From positions 107,064 to 171,063 of the forward strand of contig CAIOGO010000020.1 in the NCBI GenBank assembly GCA_903857865.1: a DNA stretch of 64,000 bases. Direction: 5' to 3'. Positions 51,865-61,686 of the stretch are shown here, piece by piece. The position numbers and the translations under genes are program-made. The notes under the pieces were generated by a model, which was given only the letters and a program-made list of their open reading frames with translations, searched no databases and was not told the DNA's origin. This stretch comes from an uncultured bacterium. GTDB taxonomy: Bacteria; Bipolaricaulota; Bipolaricaulia; UBA7950; UBA9294. Position 1 is the first letter of the stretch. Each line of letters opens with the position of its first letter.

Positions 51865-54800
51865 TCACGGGGTGATGAGCACGGGCATCAAGAGAGCCTG
51901 CCCTTCGCCGTACACGATCCAGAATAGGTGTACTCCGGGCGTGACGCCGCCGGTGCCGATGTCGAGGACGTACTCGTCTCCCGCTTTCGCATGACCGGAG
52001 AAGGTGCTGGCGGACAGACCCAGGCCGCCGCCCGCTCCCGCCGCGAGGTCGAGGCCCGGCCGGGTCGTGATGATCCACGGCCACCCGGTCGTCCTCCGGT
52101 TCTCACGTGACAGCGAGAAGCTCACCGCTAGAGGCGCGCCGGCGCGAAGAGCCACGGGCTCCATGCCGGTCTGTTCGTAGAGAGCCTCGAGTTCCGGCGA
52201 GTTAGGCGCTCCAGGCGTCGCGCGGAGAGGATGCTTCTGCGCGTCCTCCCCTCGCGTGACGACGCCCATGTTCGTGCTCCAGTTCTCCGCGACATCGGGG
52301 CCGAGAGGATCCACTCGTTCCATCGATCCGAAGGTGCTTCTGTTCCCAGCGGCCCACTCATCGCTCCCGATGTTGGACGCGTTCGCCGTGTCGACGACGT
52401 CCCCACGATCGTCCACCAGCATGATCACCTCGCCGAGATCGGAGAGGGCGAGCATGGGCGATTGGGTGGCGTCGTAGACCATGTCAGATGCCACATCGCT
52501 GACGACCTCTTCTCGCGTGCGCTCGAGAACGAAGTAGCCACGCGTTTCCGGGTTCGGGTCATACGATATCTGCCACAGGAGGCCGCTCGGGTCGTTCGTC
52601 GACACGAGAACCCCAGACGTCTCGTCTTCCGTCTCGGCATCGCACGCCGAGACGGAAGACGCGGCAAGGACCCCGGAAAGTTCGACGGTCTTCCAGATGT
52701 AGTCCTCCGGGGTCACGGGGCGTGTCCGTCTCCACTGCAAAGTCCATCCTGTCAGATCGACGGGCGCGGTTCCAAGGTTGCGCAGCTCGATCCACTCGTC
52801 CTCGGCATCCGCCGCGGTTCCCGCCCACGCGACTTCGCTGATGATCACCTTGCCATCGCAAGAGGAGCCCGACGCCGCGCCTCCGCCGCCCGCGACGCCC
52901 GCCACTCCCACGGTGACCGCACCCGTAGTAGTCAGTCCTTGGGGGTCCGCCACGGTGTAGCTGAAGGAATCGGTTCCCACGAATCCAGCGTCCGGCGTGT
53001 ACAGGACTCCGGTTCCCTGGTTGGCCACCATACCGTGGAGAGGTTGCGTGAACGAGACCACGGCGAGCGCGTCGCCGTCCTCATCCCTGTCGTTCGCCAG
53101 CACGGGGATCGAGATCGGAACGTCCATATCGGTCGTCGCGCTGTCATCCTGTGCCGTCGGCGCATCGTTCATCGAGACGACGACCACCATGACGCTCGCC
53201 GTCGCTGTGCCGCCGCGTCCGTCGGACACCGTGTACGCGAAGAGGTCGACTCCGCTCCATCCCGCCGCCGGCGTGTACGTGATGGCCGCGCCGTCGCGGA
53301 CCGCGAAGCCTGCGGAAGGCTTCGTGATGGACTCCACTCGGAGAACGTCCCCGTCGGGGTCTAGGTCGTTCAGCAGCACGGGAATCCCCACCGGCATATC
53401 CTCGTCCGTGACACCGCTGTCGTCGCGAGCGACAGGAGCCTGATTGGCGGCAGCGACGGACATGGTCACGCTGGCCGTTGCTACGCCGCCATTCCCGTCG
53501 GACACGGTGTACGAGAACGTGTCCACGCCGTGGAATCCGGCGTCCGGAATGTACGAAATGCCCGTCCGGCTGTTGAGCAGAGTGCCGTGGGCCGGGTTCC
53601 CGATCGACTGGACGAGCAGGAAGTCGCCGTCCGGATCGCTGTCGTTCTGCAGAACCTCAATCATCAGCATGGCACCCTCGCTGGTGACGGCGCTGTCGTC
53701 CTGAGCGGCCGGACCGTGATTCGCGTGAACGACCGCGACCGAGACCTGCGCGGTGTCCGTCCCTCCTCGCCCATCCGCCACGGTGTACGCGAAGCTGTCG
53801 GTGCCACTGAATCCGGCACTCGGGATGTACGTCACCTCAGTCCTCCCATTCACGACAATGCCGTGGAAAGGCAGGGTCACTGCCTGGACCGTTAACCCAT
53901 CGCCGTCTGGGTCCCGGTCGTTGCTCAGCACGGCGATGCTCACGACTCCGTCCTCGTCAATCGTCGCGCTGTCGTCCTGCGCGACGGGGACGTCGTTCAC
54001 CGCGACGATGGTCACCGTGACGGTTGCCACTGCAGTGCCCCCGTTCCCGTCCGCCAGCGTGTAGGTGAAGGCGTCTTCACCAGAGTAGTTCGGAGCGGGA
54101 GAGTAGATAATGGCAGATCCGCTCCGGATCGTCGCGCCGTGAAGCGGCTGTGAGTTGGACTCGATGGTCAAGGAATCCCCGTCCGGATCCGAGTCATTGG
54201 CAAGGACGGGGATCGTAACCGGGGTGTCTTCGAGGGTCGAGATGCGGTCGCCCACGGCGATCGGAAGGTTGTTCACGCTCGCCACATCGACGGTGACGAG
54301 AGCCGGGGCGCTTCCTCCCTGACCGTCGATGACGACGTAGGTAAAGCTGTCGACACCATGGAAACCCGGCGCGGGCGCGTAGATGACCGTAGCCCCGCTG
54401 ATCTCCGCCGCCCCGCTGGCCGGCGAGGACACCGATTGGATGGTGAGGAGGTCGCCGTCGGAGTCGCTGTCGTTCGAGAGGACAGGAATCACGACCGAAG
54501 CATCCTCATCGGTCGACGCGCTGTCATCATGAGCCAGAGGCGCATGATTGACGGCAGCAATCGTGATCGTGATCGTCGCGCTCGCCGTCCCTCCGCGCCC
54601 GTCCGACACGGTGTACGTGAACGCATCGGCACCGTGGAAGCCTCTGTTCGGGCTGTAGGTCGCGCTCGTTCCGCTCTTCGTAAGCGATCCGTTGCCGGGC
54701 TGCGTCACGGACTGGAGCATGAGCGTGTCCCCGTCAGGATCGGTGTCGTTGGCGAGAAGCGAGATCGTCACCGGAGCGTCCTCGCCCGTCGCCACGCTGC

Positions 54801-57321
54801 CGCCGCGAGCCACGGGTGGATGGTTCACCGTAGCCACGTTGACCGTGACACGAGCTGCCGCAGTTCCTCCCTGTCCATCGGCGACGACGTACGTGAAGCT
54901 GTCAACGCCGTGGAATCCCAGGATAGGCGCGTAGCTCACGACCGAGCCGCGGATCTCCGCCGTCCCGTTGGCCGGCGATGACAGCGATTGGATGGTGATG
55001 AGGTCGCCATCGGGATCGCTGTCATTCTCGAGAACGGCAATCGTCACGGCGACGTCTTCGTCGGTGGACGCACTGTCATCCTGAGCCAACGGCTCGTCGT
55101 TGACGGCAGCGACGACGATCGTGAGGGTCGCGCTCGCTGTCCCGCCATGTCCGTCCGAGGCCGTGTACGTGAACGCATCGACGCCGTAGAAGTCGCTGTT
55201 CGGGGTGTAGGTTGCCATCGTTCCGCTCGTCGTGACCGCTCCGTGGTCGGGCTGCGTCACGGATTCGAGGGTGAGGAGATCTCCGTCCGGATCCGTGTCG
55301 TTGTCGAGGACGGAGATCGAGAGCGCGACGTCTTCGTCCGTGAACACCGTGCCGCCCTGAGCCTGCGGTTGGTCGTTGATCGAGGCGACGGTGACGGTGA
55401 CGACCGCGCTCGACGCCCCTCCGACACCGTCTGATGCGGTGTACGTGAACGTGTCGACGCCGTGGAAGTTGCCATTCGGAGTGTAGGTCACACTCGTCCC
55501 GTGACTCGCCACCGAGCCGTTCTCTGGCTGCGTCACAGACTCGACCGCAAGGACATCCCCGTCGGGATCGCTGTCGTTGGCGAGGACGGAGACCGTGACG
55601 GCGACGTCCTCGTTCGTCGACGCGCTGTCGGCCTGGGCGATCGGATCGTCGTTGACGGAGGCGACGCGGACCGTGACCGCGGCGCTCGCTGTCCCTCCAT
55701 GTCCGTCCGACGCCGAGTAGGTGAACGTATCGATCCCGCAGAAGTTGGGATCTGGCGCATACTGGATTCTGGTGCCGAGGTTCGATACCCGCCCGTTCGC
55801 CGGGTCACTCGCCCAATCCACCGACAAGGAATCCCCATCCGGATCGCTGTCGTTCGCCAGAACGTCGATCGCAACCGACGCATCTTCCTGGGTTGCCGCC
55901 TCGTCGGCAGTCGCCAGCGGCGCGTCGTTCGTCGGACTGATGACGAGGCTCACCGCAGCTACGTTCGAGTCCTTGAAGGTGTCGTTCGCCACATAGGTGA
56001 ACGCATCGTCCCGGGTCTCCGTGCCGTCGTGGACGTAGACGAACGAGCCGTCGGAGTGCAGAGTCAATGTGCCGTGATGAACACCCGAGACGAGGACAGC
56101 CATGAGGGGATTCCCCGGCGTGTCCTTGTCATTCGCGAGCACGCCGCGGGCAGGGACGCTGAGAGCTCCGCCCTCCGCGGCGTTGTAGAGGTCGTCGATC
56201 GCCAGGGGCGGGTCGTTGCACAGCACCGACACAGTGACTCGAGCCGGATTCGACGTGGCCCCGTCATCGTCTCGGATCGTGTACTCGAAAGAGTCGTCGC
56301 CGCATCCTCCCGCCGCAGGCGTGTACGTCACGACTCCCGTTCTCGGATGGACGCTCAAGGAGCCGGATCTCGGATCCTGGGAGATCGAGATCGACTCAAG
56401 ATCGAGCGCCCCATCGGCGTCACGGTCGTTGGCTGCGACGTTGATCGCGATGGCTGTCCGCTCGTCGGTCGTGGCACTGTCGTTGCTCGCTACGGGCGAT
56501 GCGTTGCCGACGACCGCGATTGCCACTCGAGCTTCGTTGGACGTCGCTCCATCGTCGTCACGAACGGTGTACCGGAACGAATCTTCACCGCTTGCCCCAT
56601 GCGTGGGAACGTACGTCACCGTGCCCATCGTCGGATCCAAGCTCGCCGAACCGGACGCGGGCGCCTGCGTGATGGTCACCGTCGTGCGATTCAGGGTTCC
56701 ATCGTCGTCTCTGTCGTTTGCCAAGACGTCGATCCGCACGGACTCGTTCTCGTTCGTGCTCACGCGGTCGTCCAGGGCGCTAGGAGGCGTGTTCTCCGCA
56801 GCCATCTTCTCTCCTGGACCCGAGATGGGTTCCGCCACCGTCGCGTCCTTCCCCGCCTTCACGCCGATGCGAGTCGGGATCACGCTGTGCCAACCATCAA
56901 GGGTGAACGACACGGCGCGAGCCTCGTTGTCCTTGTAGCCGCCGTCGAACTTGAGCCCGTAGACGCCCGTCGTCGGGTCGGTGTTGACCTCGTATCGCTC
57001 CGAGCAACTGACGACGTTCGACCTTCCCAAGAACGACGAGTCGAACCCAAGCACCCAATGGCTGAGTGCGGGCTTCCTGCCCGAGGTCACGCTGTACGAC
57101 CACGTCGATGTGCCGTCGCTGTTGTACGTGACCCCTCGAAACTCGAACGTATGGTCGCCCACTTGCAGGACGTCGCTTGCCGACACCGCAATGCTCAACC
57201 CGAGCACCACGAACGCGAGCGTCAGCCTGCTCCACCAAGAAACTCGGGAGGCTCTCATCCGTTCCGAATCGTGCCGTTCTGATCCCTTGCGCGTCGTCTC
57301 TCGGCCCCGCTGCACGAACAT
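51865..57321 (-). CDS. Giant secreted cadherin-like repeat protein with C-terminal lamin-tail domain
   Basis: An 1,818-residue surface protein. The start at 57321 follows GGGAGG; a signal peptide (about residues 22-48) comes first, then an unrecognised domain (50-170, SHWVLGFDSSFLG). Fourteen cadherin-like repeats of about 93 residues run from about 180 to 1478, each with the D-D-S...NDSDPDGD calcium-binding signature; the third is of VCBS type. A lamin-tail domain (about 1485-1680) and a C-terminal beta domain follow. No sortase or PEP-CTERM sorting signal is visible. The likely role is calcium-stabilised adhesion or matrix formation. Expression should be set by the c-di-GMP riboswitch in its leader. 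Confidence 0.88.
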   Translation of the reverse strand: MFVQRGRETTRKGSERHDSERMRASRVSWWSRLTLAFVVLGLSIAVSASDVLQVGDHTFEFRGVTYNSDGTSTWSYSVTSGRKPALSHWVLGFDSSFLGRSNVVSCSERYEVNTDPTTGVYGLKFDGGYKDNEARAVSFTLDGWHSVIPTRIGVKAGKDATVAEPISGPGEKMAAENTPPSALDDRVSTNENESVRIDVLANDRDDDGTLNRTTVTITQAPASGSASLDPTMGTVTYVPTHGASGEDSFRYTVRDDDGATSNEARVAIAVVGNASPVASNDSATTDERTAIAINVAANDRDADGALDLESISISQDPRSGSLSVHPRTGVVTYTPAAGGCGDDSFEYTIRDDDGATSNPARVTVSVLCNDPPLAIDDLYNAAEGGALSVPARGVLANDKDTPGNPLMAVLVSGVHHGTLTLHSDGSFVYVHDGTETRDDAFTYVANDTFKDSNVAAVSLVISPTNDAPLATADEAATQEDASVAIDVLANDSDPDGDSLSVDWASDPANGRVSNLGTRIQYAPDPNFCGIDTFTYSASDGHGGTASAAVTVRVASVNDDPIAQADSASTNEDVAVTVSVLANDSDPDGDVLAVESVTQPENGSVASHGTSVTYTPNGNFHGVDTFTYTASDGVGGASSAVVTVTVASINDQPQAQGGTVFTDEDVALSISVLDNDTDPDGDLLTLESVTQPDHGAVTTSGTMATYTPNSDFYGVDAFTYTASDGHGGTASATLTIVVAAVNDEPLAQDDSASTDEDVAVTIAVLENDSDPDGDLITIQSLSSPANGTAEIRGSVVSYAPILGFHGVDSFTYVVADGQGGTAAARVTVNVATVNHPPVARGGSVATGEDAPVTISLLANDTDPDGDTLMLQSVTQPGNGSLTKSGTSATYSPNRGFHGADAFTYTVSDGRGGTASATITITIAAVNHAPLAHDDSASTDEDASVVIPVLSNDSDSDGDLLTIQSVSSPASGAAEISGATVIYAPAPGFHGVDSFTYVVIDGQGGSAPALVTVDVASVNNLPIAVGDRISTLEDTPVTIPVLANDSDPDGDSLTIESNSQPLHGATIRSGSAIIYSPAPNYSGEDAFTYTLADGNGGTAVATVTVTIVAVNDVPVAQDDSATIDEDGVVSIAVLSNDRDPDGDGLTVQAVTLPFHGIVVNGRTEVTYIPSAGFSGTDSFAYTVADGRGGTDTAQVSVAVVHANHGPAAQDDSAVTSEGAMLMIEVLQNDSDPDGDFLLVQSIGNPAHGTLLNSRTGISYIPDAGFHGVDTFSYTVSDGNGGVATASVTMSVAAANQAPVARDDSGVTDEDMPVGIPVLLNDLDPDGDVLRVESITKPSAGFAVRDGAAITYTPAAGWSGVDLFAYTVSDGRGGTATASVMVVVVSMNDAPTAQDDSATTDMDVPISIPVLANDRDEDGDALAVVSFTQPLHGMVANQGTGVLYTPDAGFVGTDSFSYTVADPQGLTTTGAVTVGVAGVAGGGGAASGSSCDGKVIISEVAWAGTAADAEDEWIELRNLGTAPVDLTGWTLQWRRTRPVTPEDYIWKTVELSGVLAASSVSACDAETEDETSGVLVSTNDPSGLLWQISYDPNPETRGYFVLERTREEVVSDVASDMVYDATQSPMLALSDLGEVIMLVDDRGDVVDTANASNIGSDEWAAGNRSTFGSMERVDPLGPDVAENWSTNMGVVTRGEDAQKHPLRATPGAPNSPELEALYEQTGMEPVALRAGAPLAVSFSLSRENRRTTGWPWIITTRPGLDLAAGAGGGLGLSASTFSGHAKAGDEYVLDIGTGGVTPGVHLFWIVYGEGQALLMPVLITP
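52887..56782 (-). repeat. Fourteen tandem cadherin-like coding repeats
   Basis: About 280 bases per unit. Units 4 to 14 are more alike than units 1 to 3, suggesting recent expansion in the middle and C-terminal part. Boundaries are estimated from the protein repeats. Confidence 0.75.
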
Positions 57322-57345
57322 GAAACCTCCCTGTGGGCGTCCCAG

Positions 57346-57427
57346 CCGGCAACCTGCTGCCTCCACGAAGGAGGCAGTAGGCCTCAGGCTCTGGGCTTTG
57401 CGTCCCACCCTTGCGAGTGGCCTGCCC
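57346..57427 (-). promoter_or_regulatory. c-di-GMP-I (GEMM-I) riboswitch aptamer
   Basis: On the minus strand the leader of the giant surface protein gene reads GGGCAGGCC, then a six-base stem closed by a GCAA (GNRA) tetraloop, then the hallmark GGGACGCAAAGCC (ACGCAAAGCC at 57394-57403), an eight-base second stem (57357-57364 with 57370-57377) and the closing CAGGTTGCCGG. Order, spacing and tetraloop match the Vibrio cholerae Vc2 aptamer almost base for base in the conserved core. The ribosome site GGGAGG lies about 15 bases downstream, so control of translation is likely. Confidence 0.92.
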
Positions 57428-57686
57428 TTCCCAGCCCGAGGTAGGTGATCGCCGCCGCCTCACATCCCATGACGACTGTACCTCCTCGCGCCCAGACGCA
57501 GACGCGGTATCGGCCGGCGACCGGATCATTCTAGCAGGTCGCAGGGGACAGGCACGGCGGGTCCGGAGGCCCAAGACGCTGGGTCGGCCTCCGGGGGCGG
57601 AGAACAAGCCCTCTGCGTCCCAACGCAGGGGCGTCCCGGTGCTTGCTTCTGGACTCGCCACGCAGCGGGATGATAGAGTGATCGCA
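57428..57686. other. Divergent region between riboswitch and the beta-helix gene
   Basis: About 260 bases with the promoters of both flanking genes. On the plus strand there is a perfect nine-base stem (CCGGAGGCC 57563-57571 with GGCCTCCGG 57586-57594) in the probable leader of the beta-helix gene. No second ACGCAAAGCC core is present, so that leader is not a c-di-GMP-I riboswitch. Confidence 0.5.
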
Positions 57687-60155
57687 ATGACCCTGACTCG
57701 ACGCAAACGTGCCGTGGCGCTCCTCGGACTCCTGCTTGTCGCTGCGGGAGCCTTCGGGATCGTCCGCTATGCTCTCTTTCCTCCCGAGCGCATTCCGCGC
57801 GGCGCTATCGTCGTTCCTCGCGACGTCGCCACGCTGGACGCAGCGCTTCGGCGCGTCGAGCCTGGAGGAACCATCGTCCTCGACACCCACGAACAGGCCC
57901 TGGTCGGTCCCGTCGTCATCGACGTTCCCGAGGTCACCATCTGCTCGTTCGGGCCCCCGGCGCGCGTGACGGCGCAGGGCAATGCCCCCGCGCTCGCCAT
58001 CCGAGCAAACGATGTCACGGTTCGAAACCTGGAGATTTCGGCCGAGAGCGTCGGCCTGGTCATCGCGTCGTCGCGCTGCCGTGTGGAGGATCTCACCGTC
58101 CGTGGGACTCCCGTGGCCGTGCGCCTTTCTGACGCACGAGACTGCACGCTCGATCGGATCGACATCAGTGGCGGCAACATCGGGGTGGAACTCTCTTCCT
58201 CCAGCGGGACCGAGATCCGAGCGGTGGCCGTGAGCGATGTCGCGGAGGTGGGGATCCGCGCTATTGGATCCTGGGGCAACATGCTGGAACGGATCACGGT
58301 CGCGCGCGCTCCTGTCGGGATCTCCGTTGAGGACGGGTCGAGGGAGACCCTCCTTGCCGATTGCCACGTGGAGGATTGCGGCACGTCCGGCGTCATCATT
58401 CGCGGCTCGAACGACATCACGCTCGCGAGCAGCATCGTGCGGGATGCTCCCGTTGGCATCGCCCTCGACCGAGCGACCGGGTGCGAGATCCGCGGCTGCA
58501 CCATCGAACGCCCCGCGGTCACCGGCGTGTCTCTCGAACGATCGGTGCAGAATCGCGTGCAGAACACCGTGATCCGAACTCCGGGGCAGTTCGGCCTTCG
58601 CTTGTCCGAGAGTTCCGAGAACGCGTTCTCGGACAACGAGATTCGCGGCGGCTCGGCCGTGGCGATCGATCTCACCGCAAGCAATCGCAACCTCGTGATG
58701 CGAAACGAGATCACCGACACGGCCGTCGGGATCCGGATCGACGGAAGCGAGGCCTTTCGCATCCTGAGGAACACGATCGCCAGTCGGCGCGTCGGGCTCG
58801 TCTTGGAAGGCGCAGACGGTGGCCGCATCCTCGACAACCGGGTGACGGGCGGAGTCTTCGGCATCGCGATCGTTTCCTCAACGGGGAACGTGGTCCTCCG
58901 GAATCGGGTCGAGGATCAGGCGGAGAGCGCGTTCGCGCTGCTTGGCGGCTCGACGAGCACGACGCTCGCGGAGAACAGGGCGACTCGCTGCGGCACCGGA
59001 ATCCTGATCGCGGCGTCATCGCGCAGCGACCTGCTCGACAATGTCGTCGTCGGAAACGACGTCGGCGTGCTCCTCCTCCGTTCGGGTCCCGAACTGCGGC
59101 TGGAGGGCAACCGCATCGAGCGGAACGCCGTGGGGTTGCGCCAGGCCGACCCGTCGGACGATCCGCCAGCTCGCCTCGATCTCCTCTACGCGGACATTCC
59201 GGCGGACGTCGGCGGGATCTCTCCGCCGATTCTCGCGAACAACACGTTCTCCGGAAACCGAACCCTCGACGTCGAGAACAACGCCGCGTCGCCGCTCTAT
59301 GCCGCGGGCAACCAGTGGGGTGACGGACCGAGCGGCGGCATCGCGGAGGCCCTCGTCTCCCCGGATGTCAACTTGCTGGAGTCGGCGTGGAAGGGCACGA
59401 TCGCGGTCGGAACGGAGGCGAGCGATCTACAAGAGATCCTCGGTGATATCCTTCGAATCGCCCTCGCTCGTGCGGGTTATCGCGTGGTCGATCTGATCGG
59501 CATGGGAAGCGCTCTGCTCGTTCAGGATGCCGCCAAGGCCGGCGACATCGACCTCATCACTCTGGAGTCTGCAGGCGTTGGGGCACCCAACGCCGACGCC
59601 GGGCTCACAAGCTTCGTCCTTCCCGCCCGGGCGGGTTGGGTCGCCGTGGTCCCTCAGGGCGTCGCGGACCGGTTGCCGGAACGCAGCTTGTCCGCGCTCG
59701 CTGCCATGCTCGGCGGCGACGGTCAGGCCCTCCTCTGGGCGGTCCCCCAGGCGGTCGGCGAGCCTGCCGTTGCGGCCCTTCGCGACGCCTACGGCCTCGG
59801 CGGACAGGTTCGCGCCGTCGTCTGGGCGAAGACGCTGGCCGAGGCCGAGGCCCTCCTCACATTCGGGGCTGCGGAGTTCGCGCTTCTCGAAAGCCTCGAG
59901 GAGACGGTGACGCTGTCCGGCTTCGTCACCCTCGAGGACGATCGTCACATCCTGCCGTCTGAAACCCTGGTCGTCATGGTGCGAACCGGGCTCCTTGCGG
60001 ACCACCCGGATGTCGGGGACGTGTTGTCTCGCCTCGTGGCGCGGCTCACCCCGCTCGCTCTCCGCGATCTGATGAGCCGCGTCCGTCTCTTGGACCGAAG
60101 TCCGGAGGCCGTGGCGATGGACTTCCTGGCACAGGAAGGGCTGCTTGCTGAGTAA
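57687..60155 (+). CDS. NosD-like parallel beta-helix fused to an OpuAC-type solute-binding domain
   Basis: An 822-residue exported or membrane-anchored protein. One N-terminal hydrophobic segment (about 8-28) is followed by a right-handed beta-helix (about 90-540) with NosD/CASH-type coils such as GNRIERNAVGLR and NRVTGGVFGIAIVSSTGN. The C-terminal ~260 residues resemble periplasmic glycine betaine/choline-binding proteins (VGTEASDLQEILGDILRIAL, IDLITLESAG). No permease or ATPase is encoded beside it, so it may sense or bind rather than import. The start at 57687 lies 16 bases downstream of a -10-like TGATAG. The next gene begins 16 bases after its stop. Confidence 0.8.
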   Translation: MTLTRRKRAVALLGLLLVAAGAFGIVRYALFPPERIPRGAIVVPRDVATLDAALRRVEPGGTIVLDTHEQALVGPVVIDVPEVTICSFGPPARVTAQGNAPALAIRANDVTVRNLEISAESVGLVIASSRCRVEDLTVRGTPVAVRLSDARDCTLDRIDISGGNIGVELSSSSGTEIRAVAVSDVAEVGIRAIGSWGNMLERITVARAPVGISVEDGSRETLLADCHVEDCGTSGVIIRGSNDITLASSIVRDAPVGIALDRATGCEIRGCTIERPAVTGVSLERSVQNRVQNTVIRTPGQFGLRLSESSENAFSDNEIRGGSAVAIDLTASNRNLVMRNEITDTAVGIRIDGSEAFRILRNTIASRRVGLVLEGADGGRILDNRVTGGVFGIAIVSSTGNVVLRNRVEDQAESAFALLGGSTSTTLAENRATRCGTGILIAASSRSDLLDNVVVGNDVGVLLLRSGPELRLEGNRIERNAVGLRQADPSDDPPARLDLLYADIPADVGGISPPILANNTFSGNRTLDVENNAASPLYAAGNQWGDGPSGGIAEALVSPDVNLLESAWKGTIAVGTEASDLQEILGDILRIALARAGYRVVDLIGMGSALLVQDAAKAGDIDLITLESAGVGAPNADAGLTSFVLPARAGWVAVVPQGVADRLPERSLSALAAMLGGDGQALLWAVPQAVGEPAVAALRDAYGLGGQVRAVVWAKTLAEAEALLTFGAAEFALLESLEETVTLSGFVTLEDDRHILPSETLVVMVRTGLLADHPDVGDVLSRLVARLTPLALRDLMSRVRLLDRSPEAVAMDFLAQEGLLAE

Positions 60156-60171
60156 GGAAGAAGGAGATCCG

Positions 60172-61464
60172 ATGGACGAGAGGAAGACGGCCGATCGGCG
60201 GCCCGGCTGGCCGATCCGGCTTCGATCTTGGGTTCGGTACGGAACGGGCCTTCGGGCGAAGCTCATCGTCCTAGTGTTGGCGATCGCGTGCCTGGTGGTC
60301 GGCGCGCTGTATTGGTTCTCCTACAGTTCCATGCGCACGTTGATCGTGTCGATCTACGAGCAGAGGGCGCGAAGCGTCGCCGCCATCATCTCCAAGTCGA
60401 TCCAGGAGAAGGACTACATCCTGTACTACTCGGAGGAGTTGAACGCCGACATCGACCGCCTCCTCGAACGGTACGAGTCCGTCATCGGGATCACGGTCAT
60501 CGGCGTGACCGCGCGCGGCTTCGTCTCCATCGCCAGCACGGACCCGAGCCTCGTGGGATCGCTGGCCACCGCCGAGGAGCGCGATCGACTCGACGCGTTG
60601 CGGGAGGTGGACGTCGCCCCTGTGAAGCTGCGCGGCGCCTCGTATCTTCGCGCGCACGACCCGATCTTCTCCGGACCCGATCTCATCGGAGTCGTCGTCG
60701 TAGACATGTCTCTCGACGAGCAAGCGCAGGCCATCTCCCACCTCTCGTGGCGGTTCGGGGGCGCCTCCGTCCTTGGCTGCCTCTTGCTGGGGGGCTTTCT
60801 GTACCTCGCGATGCGAGGAATCGTGACGAGGCCCGTCGGTCAGTTGGCGGGGGCAATGGGTGCAGTCGCGCGGCGAAAGTACGACGTCGAGGCGAAGCAC
60901 CCGTTCCCCAGACTCCCCGGAACTCGCCTCAAGGACGAAGTCGCGCAACTCGTCGACGGCTTCAACTTAATGACCCGCGTGATCCACTCCCACGAGCAGG
61001 AACTGATGAAGCTCGTGGTGCTCGACGCGCTAACGGGAGCGTACACTGTCGACCATCTCCGAGCGGAGTTGGAGCGCGAGCTCTGCAAGACGCGCCGGTA
61101 CAAGCATCCAACGTCCGTTCTTGTCGTCGACATTCGAGGAGCCGAGACACGGCCGTCCCAAGACCAGGACAGCGTCTTGATCTCGACGGCCCGCTTCCTT
61201 GTCAGCAATCTCCGGAACGTGGATGTGTTGTTCCGCGTCGGCCCGTTCCGGTTCGCCTCGCTCTTGCCCGAGACGCCGCCCGCCGGAGCCGCCGTGGCCG
61301 CGGGGCGACTGCGAATCCAGGTCCCCGACGTCACCGCCCAGTACTCGTTCTCCGTCGCCCTAGACGTCCGGGTCATGGGGTGGGGAGAAGAGGGTGCTCC
61401 GGCAATTGACGAGGTCCTCAAGGACATCGCTGGCTCGGATGGCGCTCCTCGCGAAGAGACGTAG
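60172..61464 (+). CDS. HAMP receptor with degenerate GGDEF domain
   Basis: A 430-residue membrane receptor: TM1 at about 30-52, an extracytoplasmic sensor of Cache type (55-190), TM2 at about 195-215, HAMP (216-270) and a GGDEF-like domain from 280 (LVVLDALTGAYTVDHLRAEL). The active-site GGDEF is replaced by V-G-P-F-R-F (356-361), so cyclase activity is lost; it could be an inactive allosteric or protein-binding module. The ATG at 60172 follows AAGGAG, and its stop is next to the beta-helix protein gene upstream and a small membrane protein downstream, so the three form an operon. Confidence 0.85.
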   Translation: MDERKTADRRPGWPIRLRSWVRYGTGLRAKLIVLVLAIACLVVGALYWFSYSSMRTLIVSIYEQRARSVAAIISKSIQEKDYILYYSEELNADIDRLLERYESVIGITVIGVTARGFVSIASTDPSLVGSLATAEERDRLDALREVDVAPVKLRGASYLRAHDPIFSGPDLIGVVVVDMSLDEQAQAISHLSWRFGGASVLGCLLLGGFLYLAMRGIVTRPVGQLAGAMGAVARRKYDVEAKHPFPRLPGTRLKDEVAQLVDGFNLMTRVIHSHEQELMKLVVLDALTGAYTVDHLRAELERELCKTRRYKHPTSVLVVDIRGAETRPSQDQDSVLISTARFLVSNLRNVDVLFRVGPFRFASLLPETPPAGAAVAAGRLRIQVPDVTAQYSFSVALDVRVMGWGEEGAPAIDEVLKDIAGSDGAPREET

Positions 61465-61515
61465 ATGAGACGCCAGCGACGCAACATGCATCGGAGCAGA
61501 GGGAGGGAGGAAGGC

Positions 61516-61686
61516 GTGACCAGCGCTCTTGTCGGACTGTCGATGCTCGCGCTCCTGATCCTTGCCGCCATGGTCACCCCTCGCGATGTCGCCAAGCACG
61601 AGCGCCGCGGCATGGTCACCGACTGCCAGCGGGACCTGCTCAGACCCTACGCAAGATCGCGGCGAGGTCGCGACAACTCCGGCTAG
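61516..61686 (+). CDS. Small single-pass membrane protein
   Basis: A GTG at 61516 preceded by GGGAGGAAGG opens a 56-residue frame with one transmembrane helix (VTSALVGLSMLALLILAAMV) and a basic tail (ARSRRGRDNSG). The frame continues upstream to 61465 without a ribosome site. It is the last gene of the receptor operon and might be an accessory of the HAMP receptor. No family is recognised. Confidence 0.45.
   Translation: MTSALVGLSMLALLILAAMVTPRDVAKHERRGMVTDCQRDLLRPYARSRRGRDNSG

Follow-up and report, generated by a model that had tools for sequence, protein, structure and literature searches.

What might a membrane receptor without a GGDEF motif do beside a cyclic di-GMP (c-di-GMP) riboswitch and the adhesin gene under its control? 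The question is raised by a locus in a 64,000-nucleotide stretch of DNA from an uncultured bacterium of the phylum Bipolaricaulota (the window, meaning the whole stretch that was analysed). Two adjoining genes, here called A and B, diverge there from the adhesin gene. A encodes a beta-helix protein that ends in an OpuAC solute-binding domain and B a HAMP receptor with a degenerate GGDEF domain. An earlier note, made from the sequence alone, had placed both in one operon with a third, very small membrane protein and had tied them to c-di-GMP-regulated adhesion. The best overall explanation, to which we give about an even chance, is that A and B together make up a transmembrane c-di-GMP receptor of two obligate partners, which in a longer form of the locus would also control a protease and adhesins.

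A and B occur as a pair

The window belongs to a metagenome-assembled genome (MAG) of 2.24 Mb in 22 contigs, 91% complete (G000; relatives are numbered likewise). Proteins were searched across 100 genomes of the phylum, and the neighbourhoods of A–B loci were reconstructed. A and B adjoin in 22 of 22 complete pairs, found in 18 genomes, all of them Bipolaricaulota MAGs; four genomes have two copies of each gene (G000, G002, G015 and G027). The spacing between the two genes runs from −11 to +102 nt, and the pairwise distances of A and of B correlate (r=0.87). In G021, G024, G025 and G032 a contig end truncates one partner, and in G021 the last 45 residues of A are still present beside B. Apart from such cuts, neither gene was found alone in the 100 genomes. 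Both genes are absent from 12 of the family's 33 genomes, and outside the family the pair is present in G085 only. The earlier note had allowed that the orthologues might mostly lie apart in relatives. The opposite was found, A and B standing side by side wherever either occurs. That they belong together is well supported by these gene orders, and the two proteins probably touch.

The relatives that protein search brought up are recorded as Candidatus Bipolaricaulota or Bipolaricaulis, a small number of them as Acetothermia, Atribacteria or uncultured bacterium, which places the source genome in Bipolaricaulota. A global scan of one genome for each of 84,980 species, using two short peptide patterns that can miss distant relatives, gave two further matches beyond Bipolaricaulota, both in proteobacterial MAGs and both with GGDEF-level similarity only. 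The family so far appears limited to Bipolaricaulota. A distantly B-like Cache–HAMP–GGDEF protein of G040 (29% identity; L118 1534–2829, G040:C9), whose genome falls in a different family of the class, was considered as a member and rejected, its 3.9 kb locus having no A beside it and its domain being more GGDEF-like.

B has an altered active site and an invariant inhibitory site

The HAMP and GGDEF domains of B score above their Pfam cut-offs (for the GGDEF fold PF00990, 33.5 bits against a cut-off of 23.8), and the sCache match is sub-threshold. The model of B aligns to the GGDEF domains of PleD and FimX with Z of about 17 and a root mean square deviation of 2.3 over about 140 residues. B could also start at an in-frame TTG, at 60145. 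Where GGDEF is expected, B of the window carries GPFRF. Conservation was counted in an alignment of 23 orthologues, none of which has GG[DE]EF; the fourth position, the catalytic Glu, is Arg in every one, and positions 1–3 vary. In the first strand, the metal-binding Asp (position 320) is not kept and is often Glu or Thr. Loss of GGDEF catalysis in B, as the earlier note had described it, is well supported by this alignment. Activity is known from diguanylate cyclases that carry AGDEF or SGDEF (PMC3974145), which lends some colour to the idea that B is still a cyclase with an unusual motif. Those active variants differ at the first residue only, whereas B is altered at residues 2, 3 and 4 in nearly all orthologues and at the metal-binding Asp besides, and we regard an active B as very improbable.

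The inhibitory site (I-site) presents a different picture. R348, D351 and R379, comprising RxxD and a further Arg, are retained in 23 of 23 orthologues. Since 25 of the 141 columns of the domain are invariant, the chance that three preset columns would all be so is 0.005. In PelD, a degenerate GGDEF domain binds c-di-GMP via Arg367, Asp370 and Arg402, and mutation abolishes binding (PMC7112168). No EAL domain was matched in B by Pfam, and the protein ends after its GGDEF-like domain. Judged from these residues, B may well bind c-di-GMP at the retained I-site; it seems to have exchanged making the messenger for sensing it.

A joins a beta-helix to a solute-binding domain

A begins with a hydrophobic anchor, followed by a region matching NosD (E 3e-44) and Beta_helix and, at residues 571–816, by OpuAC (PF04069, 73.5 bits, E 2.8e-20). 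Against NCBIfam TIGR04247 it scores 96.9 bits, well below the cut-off of 300 for a full-length NosD. An AlphaFold model built from 19 orthologues has a mean predicted local distance difference test (pLDDT) score of 89. Its beta-helix aligns to NosD of the NosDFY transporter (Z 27.7–28.3) and to alginate epimerases, and residues 568–822 align to the binding proteins YehZ, ProX, OpuBC and EgtU (Z about 24–27). The fusion recognized in the earlier note is borne out by both Pfam and the model. A literature search for a NosD–OpuAC fusion returned unrelated papers only. The binding fold is kept, yet A is weakly conserved, with a mean pairwise identity of 34% compared with 54% for B. Within it, R361, D383 and R405 form an Arg-Asp-Arg series on three successive coils of the beta-helix, just before an Asn ladder; the series is nearly invariant despite the otherwise low conservation of A and is possibly a binding face.

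Glycine betaine transporters use OpuAC as their binding domain, and NosD proteins are found on an ATP-binding cassette (ABC) transporter (NosDFY, 7o0y). A could on these grounds be the substrate-binding part of an ABC transporter for compatible solutes, its position beside B being incidental. However, no ABC transporter genes were recognized among the scanned neighbour proteins of representative loci (the whole genome was not searched for a permease), the only two OpuAC proteins of the source genome are its two copies of A, and A is strictly paired with B. We rejected this reading, which has very little probability left. Nor were any nos genes present among the neighbours scanned.

The main rival runs from outside to inside. 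A small molecule bound by OpuAC of A would alter B, whose dead GGDEF domain would serve as an adaptor switching a partner cyclase or phosphodiesterase; B itself would neither make nor sense c-di-GMP. In its favour, A retains the OpuAC fold (it aligns to binding proteins at Z of about 26), NspS–MbaA likewise combines a solute-binding protein with a co-encoded HAMP–GGDEF receptor (PMC8079147, PMC5646818), and a gene for a PAS–GGDEF–EAL enzyme, a candidate partner, stands upstream of A in five loci (G004, G029, G023, G017 and G007). That gene is nevertheless missing from most loci, including that of the window. Moreover, OpuAC residues are poorly conserved between A orthologues, and a pure adaptor would not need invariant I-site residues. 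We consider signalling in this direction rather unlikely.

A secreted subtilase follows B in most loci

A gene for a secreted subtilase lies directly after B in 17 of the 24 loci with a readable region downstream of B. It is complete in 15; the other two are G085, whose contig ends within the subtilase gene, and G025, in which B is cut. The protein is a Peptidase_S8 of about 455 residues with a signal peptide and a D/H/S triad that is intact in all 15 complete copies. In 11 of these 15 its start lies 4 nt before the end of the B stop codon, a 4-nt overlap. The second A–B copy of the source genome (G000:C10:203289–206974) has this long form with subtilase. The gene was invisible to the earlier note because it is missing from the window copy, which falls in a fully supported clade of short loci (100/100). 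This clade is sister to the long-form group of G004, G017 and G023, which also has the riboswitch and adhesin. The simplest history suggested by the tree, whose root is not fixed, is a single loss of the subtilase in the short branch.

In genomes without A–B, the only relative of the subtilase is shorter and corresponds to its core, and an N-terminal domain of roughly 150 residues accompanies A–B. This domain has a relative (hhalign 99.4%) in the C-terminal domain of c14, a secreted protein encoded upstream in some loci. The small secreted protein c8 is encoded upstream of A in some loci and is related to riboswitch-controlled secreted proteins (hhalign 96.8%); its relatives are DUF4402-like proteins directly behind c-di-GMP riboswitches elsewhere.

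In the window, a short open reading frame (ORF) takes the position after B, and the earlier note had made it the third gene of the operon. Using tblastn we found no homologue of this ORF downstream of B in 22 loci, the only match being of 23 residues (E 5.2); even the relative with 85% identity in B has none. Nor is there a subtilase remnant at its position. Of the proposed operon, the tightly spaced and conserved A and B stand, and nothing ties the short ORF to them. We rejected it as a third partner. It may be a real orphan gene, for it contains a GTG (61516) behind a GGAGG-like ribosome-binding site.

Riboswitches and adhesins near the pair

The riboswitch beside A–B scores above the Rfam cut-off (Table 1), and the gene positions bear out the divergence of A–B from the adhesin gene. 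The probable adhesin start is the ATG at 57323, behind GGGAGG and downstream of the aptamer. Adhesins of this cluster (c10) adjoin A–B in eight genomes of several genera (G000, G003, G015a, G027a, G004, G017, G023 and G032), five of which have a divergent aptamer together with the adhesin (G000, G004, G017, G023 and G032). A riboswitch upstream of the adhesin in all relatives had to be rejected, for no aptamer was detected at E≤1 in G003, G015a or G027a. The intergenic region of G027a (L054 2000–2370) holds what looks by eye like a decayed c-di-GMP-I aptamer, GGCGGGATGTGAAGG, and this remnant suggests loss of the riboswitch in that branch. Around the A–B pair of G005, four aptamers lie no more than about 5 kb away, ahead of small secreted proteins.

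Because aptamer and adhesin are present at some loci and absent from others, the link of A–B to c-di-GMP-controlled surface proteins is repeated and not universal, and the tie to regulated adhesion that the earlier note had proposed holds in part. Many A–B loci have neither element. This, and the three relatives in which the adhesin has no detectable riboswitch, would fit a real A–B pair that stays close to the riboswitch and adhesin by neighbourhood inertia and has no functional link to them. An adhesin that adjoins the module across several genera and the separate cluster of riboswitch-controlled secreted proteins around A–B in G005 argue otherwise, and inertia appears improbable.

RF01051 has seven matches at five sites in the source genome, each ahead of an apparently secreted protein. 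Two tandem c-di-GMP-I aptamers (G000:C9:40055–40236) precede a small secreted DUF4402-like protein, a close paralogue of which is found with a single aptamer at G000:C20:205005–205110. Two further c-di-GMP-I aptamers, about 400 bp apart on the minus strand (G000:C4:1533–2100), lie near a secreted PKD-domain protein. The N-terminal region of this protein is homologous (35% over 242 residues) to a 1855-residue HYR-repeat protein encoded directly upstream of A in G002b. The HYR protein and the window's adhesin have unrelated repeats and share about 300 C-terminal residues (LTD and tail; L062 10421–11500 and window 51865–53300), possibly an anchoring or sorting region of the lineage.

Table 1. Features of the locus, in window coordinates
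Feature	Position	Strand	Description	Evidence
Riboswitch-controlled surface protein (adhesin)	51865..57323	−	Big_9/cadherin-like repeats, C-terminal LTD domain	Pfam, sequence
c-di-GMP-I riboswitch aptamer	57345..57436	−	Upstream of the divergent adhesin gene	RF01051, 41.4 bits (cut-off 35)
Gene A	57687..60155	+	822 residues; N-terminal membrane anchor, NosD-like right-handed beta-helix, C-terminal OpuAC (571–816)	Pfam, NCBIfam, AlphaFold and PDB matches, B adjoining in all complete loci
Gene B	60172..61464	+	430 residues; transmembrane segment, sCache-like domain, transmembrane segment, HAMP, degenerate GGDEF	Pfam, 23-orthologue alignment, AlphaFold model
Short ORF named in the earlier note	61465..61686	+	73 residues; no Pfam family above cut-off; membership of the module unsupported	

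A possible switch for surface attachment

In the receptor that we favour, dimers of B would bind c-di-GMP in the cytoplasm at the retained I-site without making it. HAMP would relay the state of B across the membrane to the Cache domain, and this domain would contact A. A would be the dedicated extracytoplasmic partner, its beta-helix a stalk in the same membrane that presents the OpuAC clamshell to the Cache domain of B. The output of the long form would be the co-translated subtilase, acting on surface proteins. Since a secreted subtilase is translated with B in the fuller operon, the receptor state would most likely control extracytoplasmic proteolysis or the retention of adhesins and fimbria-like proteins, whose expression would be raised or lowered by c-di-GMP riboswitches. 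The window copy would be a derived version beside an adhesin and without a protease gene, and its pair may either cooperate with the second locus or serve purely as a sensor.

Sequence comparison establishes that A and B are paired, that the active site of B is lost and its I-site kept, that a protease usually comes with them and that a riboswitch–adhesin neighbour is present in several genomes. Control of protease or adhesin by A–B is possible and, in our judgement, doubtful; protease control with the adhesin as its target is speculative. Several observations weigh against our reading. The closest relatives that keep the adhesin are the three in which the aptamer was not detected, most long-form loci have no riboswitch nearby, and the window copy is without the protease gene. 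The OpuAC domain is so poorly conserved that a common ligand for A is doubtful. RxxD is also present in six canonical GGDEF proteins of the source genome and its presence alone is ancestral; hence the evidence from the I-site lies only in its invariance during decay of the active site. Finally, the relatives are MAGs throughout and their gene calls mechanical.

In its fullest form, which we regard as rather improbable, the arrangement would be an inside-out adhesion switch built of non-homologous parts and peculiar to Bipolaricaulota. A as co-receptor and B as I-site pseudo-GGDEF would gate a subtilase whose action is to trim adhesins and fimbria-like fibres or to release them, the expression of some being set by c-di-GMP riboswitches. 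With riboswitches setting expression and the receptor gating the subtilase, one messenger would act on both the making and the keeping of an adhesin. The findings suggest an independently built switch for surface attachment from parts other than those of the Lap and NspS–MbaA systems.

Most known examples of dead-GGDEF c-di-GMP sensors and of receptor–protease–adhesin circuits come from Proteobacteria and Firmicutes. A pair like A–B, strictly conserved in an uncultured phylum and with a new architecture for its co-receptor, would mean that circuits of this kind have more than one origin. Our literature search on Bipolaricaulota and c-di-GMP returned nothing beyond a general essay on biofilms, and the receptor proposed here is a first concrete hypothesis for control of attachment in the phylum. 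The three invariant residues provide a clear binding test, and the list for reconstitution is short: A, B, subtilase and adhesin.

Comparison with known systems

LapD–LapG–LapA of Pseudomonas and Vibrio likewise has a membrane receptor with HAMP and a catalytically dead GGDEF domain, and attachment there is under c-di-GMP control (PMC3032553, PMC5231407); A–B usually comes with an extracytoplasmic protease and sometimes lies beside a large repeat adhesin. LapD, however, binds c-di-GMP at an EAL domain, which B does not have, and the periplasmic domain of B is sCache-like and not of the LapD type. The protease is a Peptidase_S8 subtilase instead of LapG, its control by A–B being a proposal, and A has no Lap counterpart.

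NspS–MbaA of Vibrio cholerae and Sinorhizobium joins an extracytoplasmic solute-binding protein to a receptor in the membrane that belongs to the c-di-GMP pathway (PMC8079147, PMC9993111), as OpuAC in A and HAMP–GGDEF in B adjoin in all complete loci. Whereas NspS is a free polyamine-binding protein, the binding domain of A is fused to a beta-helix and anchored; and whereas MbaA is a catalytic GGDEF–EAL enzyme, B has no EAL and has lost its active site. NosD itself, which A matches in family and fold over the beta-helix, is without an OpuAC domain.

The putative ligand site of B is closest to that of PelD, where a degenerate GGDEF domain is a c-di-GMP receptor via an RxxD I-site and a further Arg (PMC7112168). 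PelD differs in having a GAF domain and serving the Pel polysaccharide machinery, whereas B has an extracytoplasmic Cache domain and HAMP. In its GGDEF fold, lost motif and retained I-site, B agrees with degenerate-GGDEF receptors of the PelD/PopA type. In Clostridioides difficile, c-di-GMP riboswitches control surface adhesins and the secreted protease ZmpI/PPEP-1 releases them (PMC6366702). Control there is by expression only, the protease is a zinc metalloprotease, the adhesins are sortase-anchored and there is no receptor pair. With no EAL, no LapG and, as far as its residues tell, no catalysis, A–B appears to lack the defining features of LapD–LapG–LapA and NspS–MbaA; by analogy, it may be said to resemble the first in outline and the second in its solute-binding partner.

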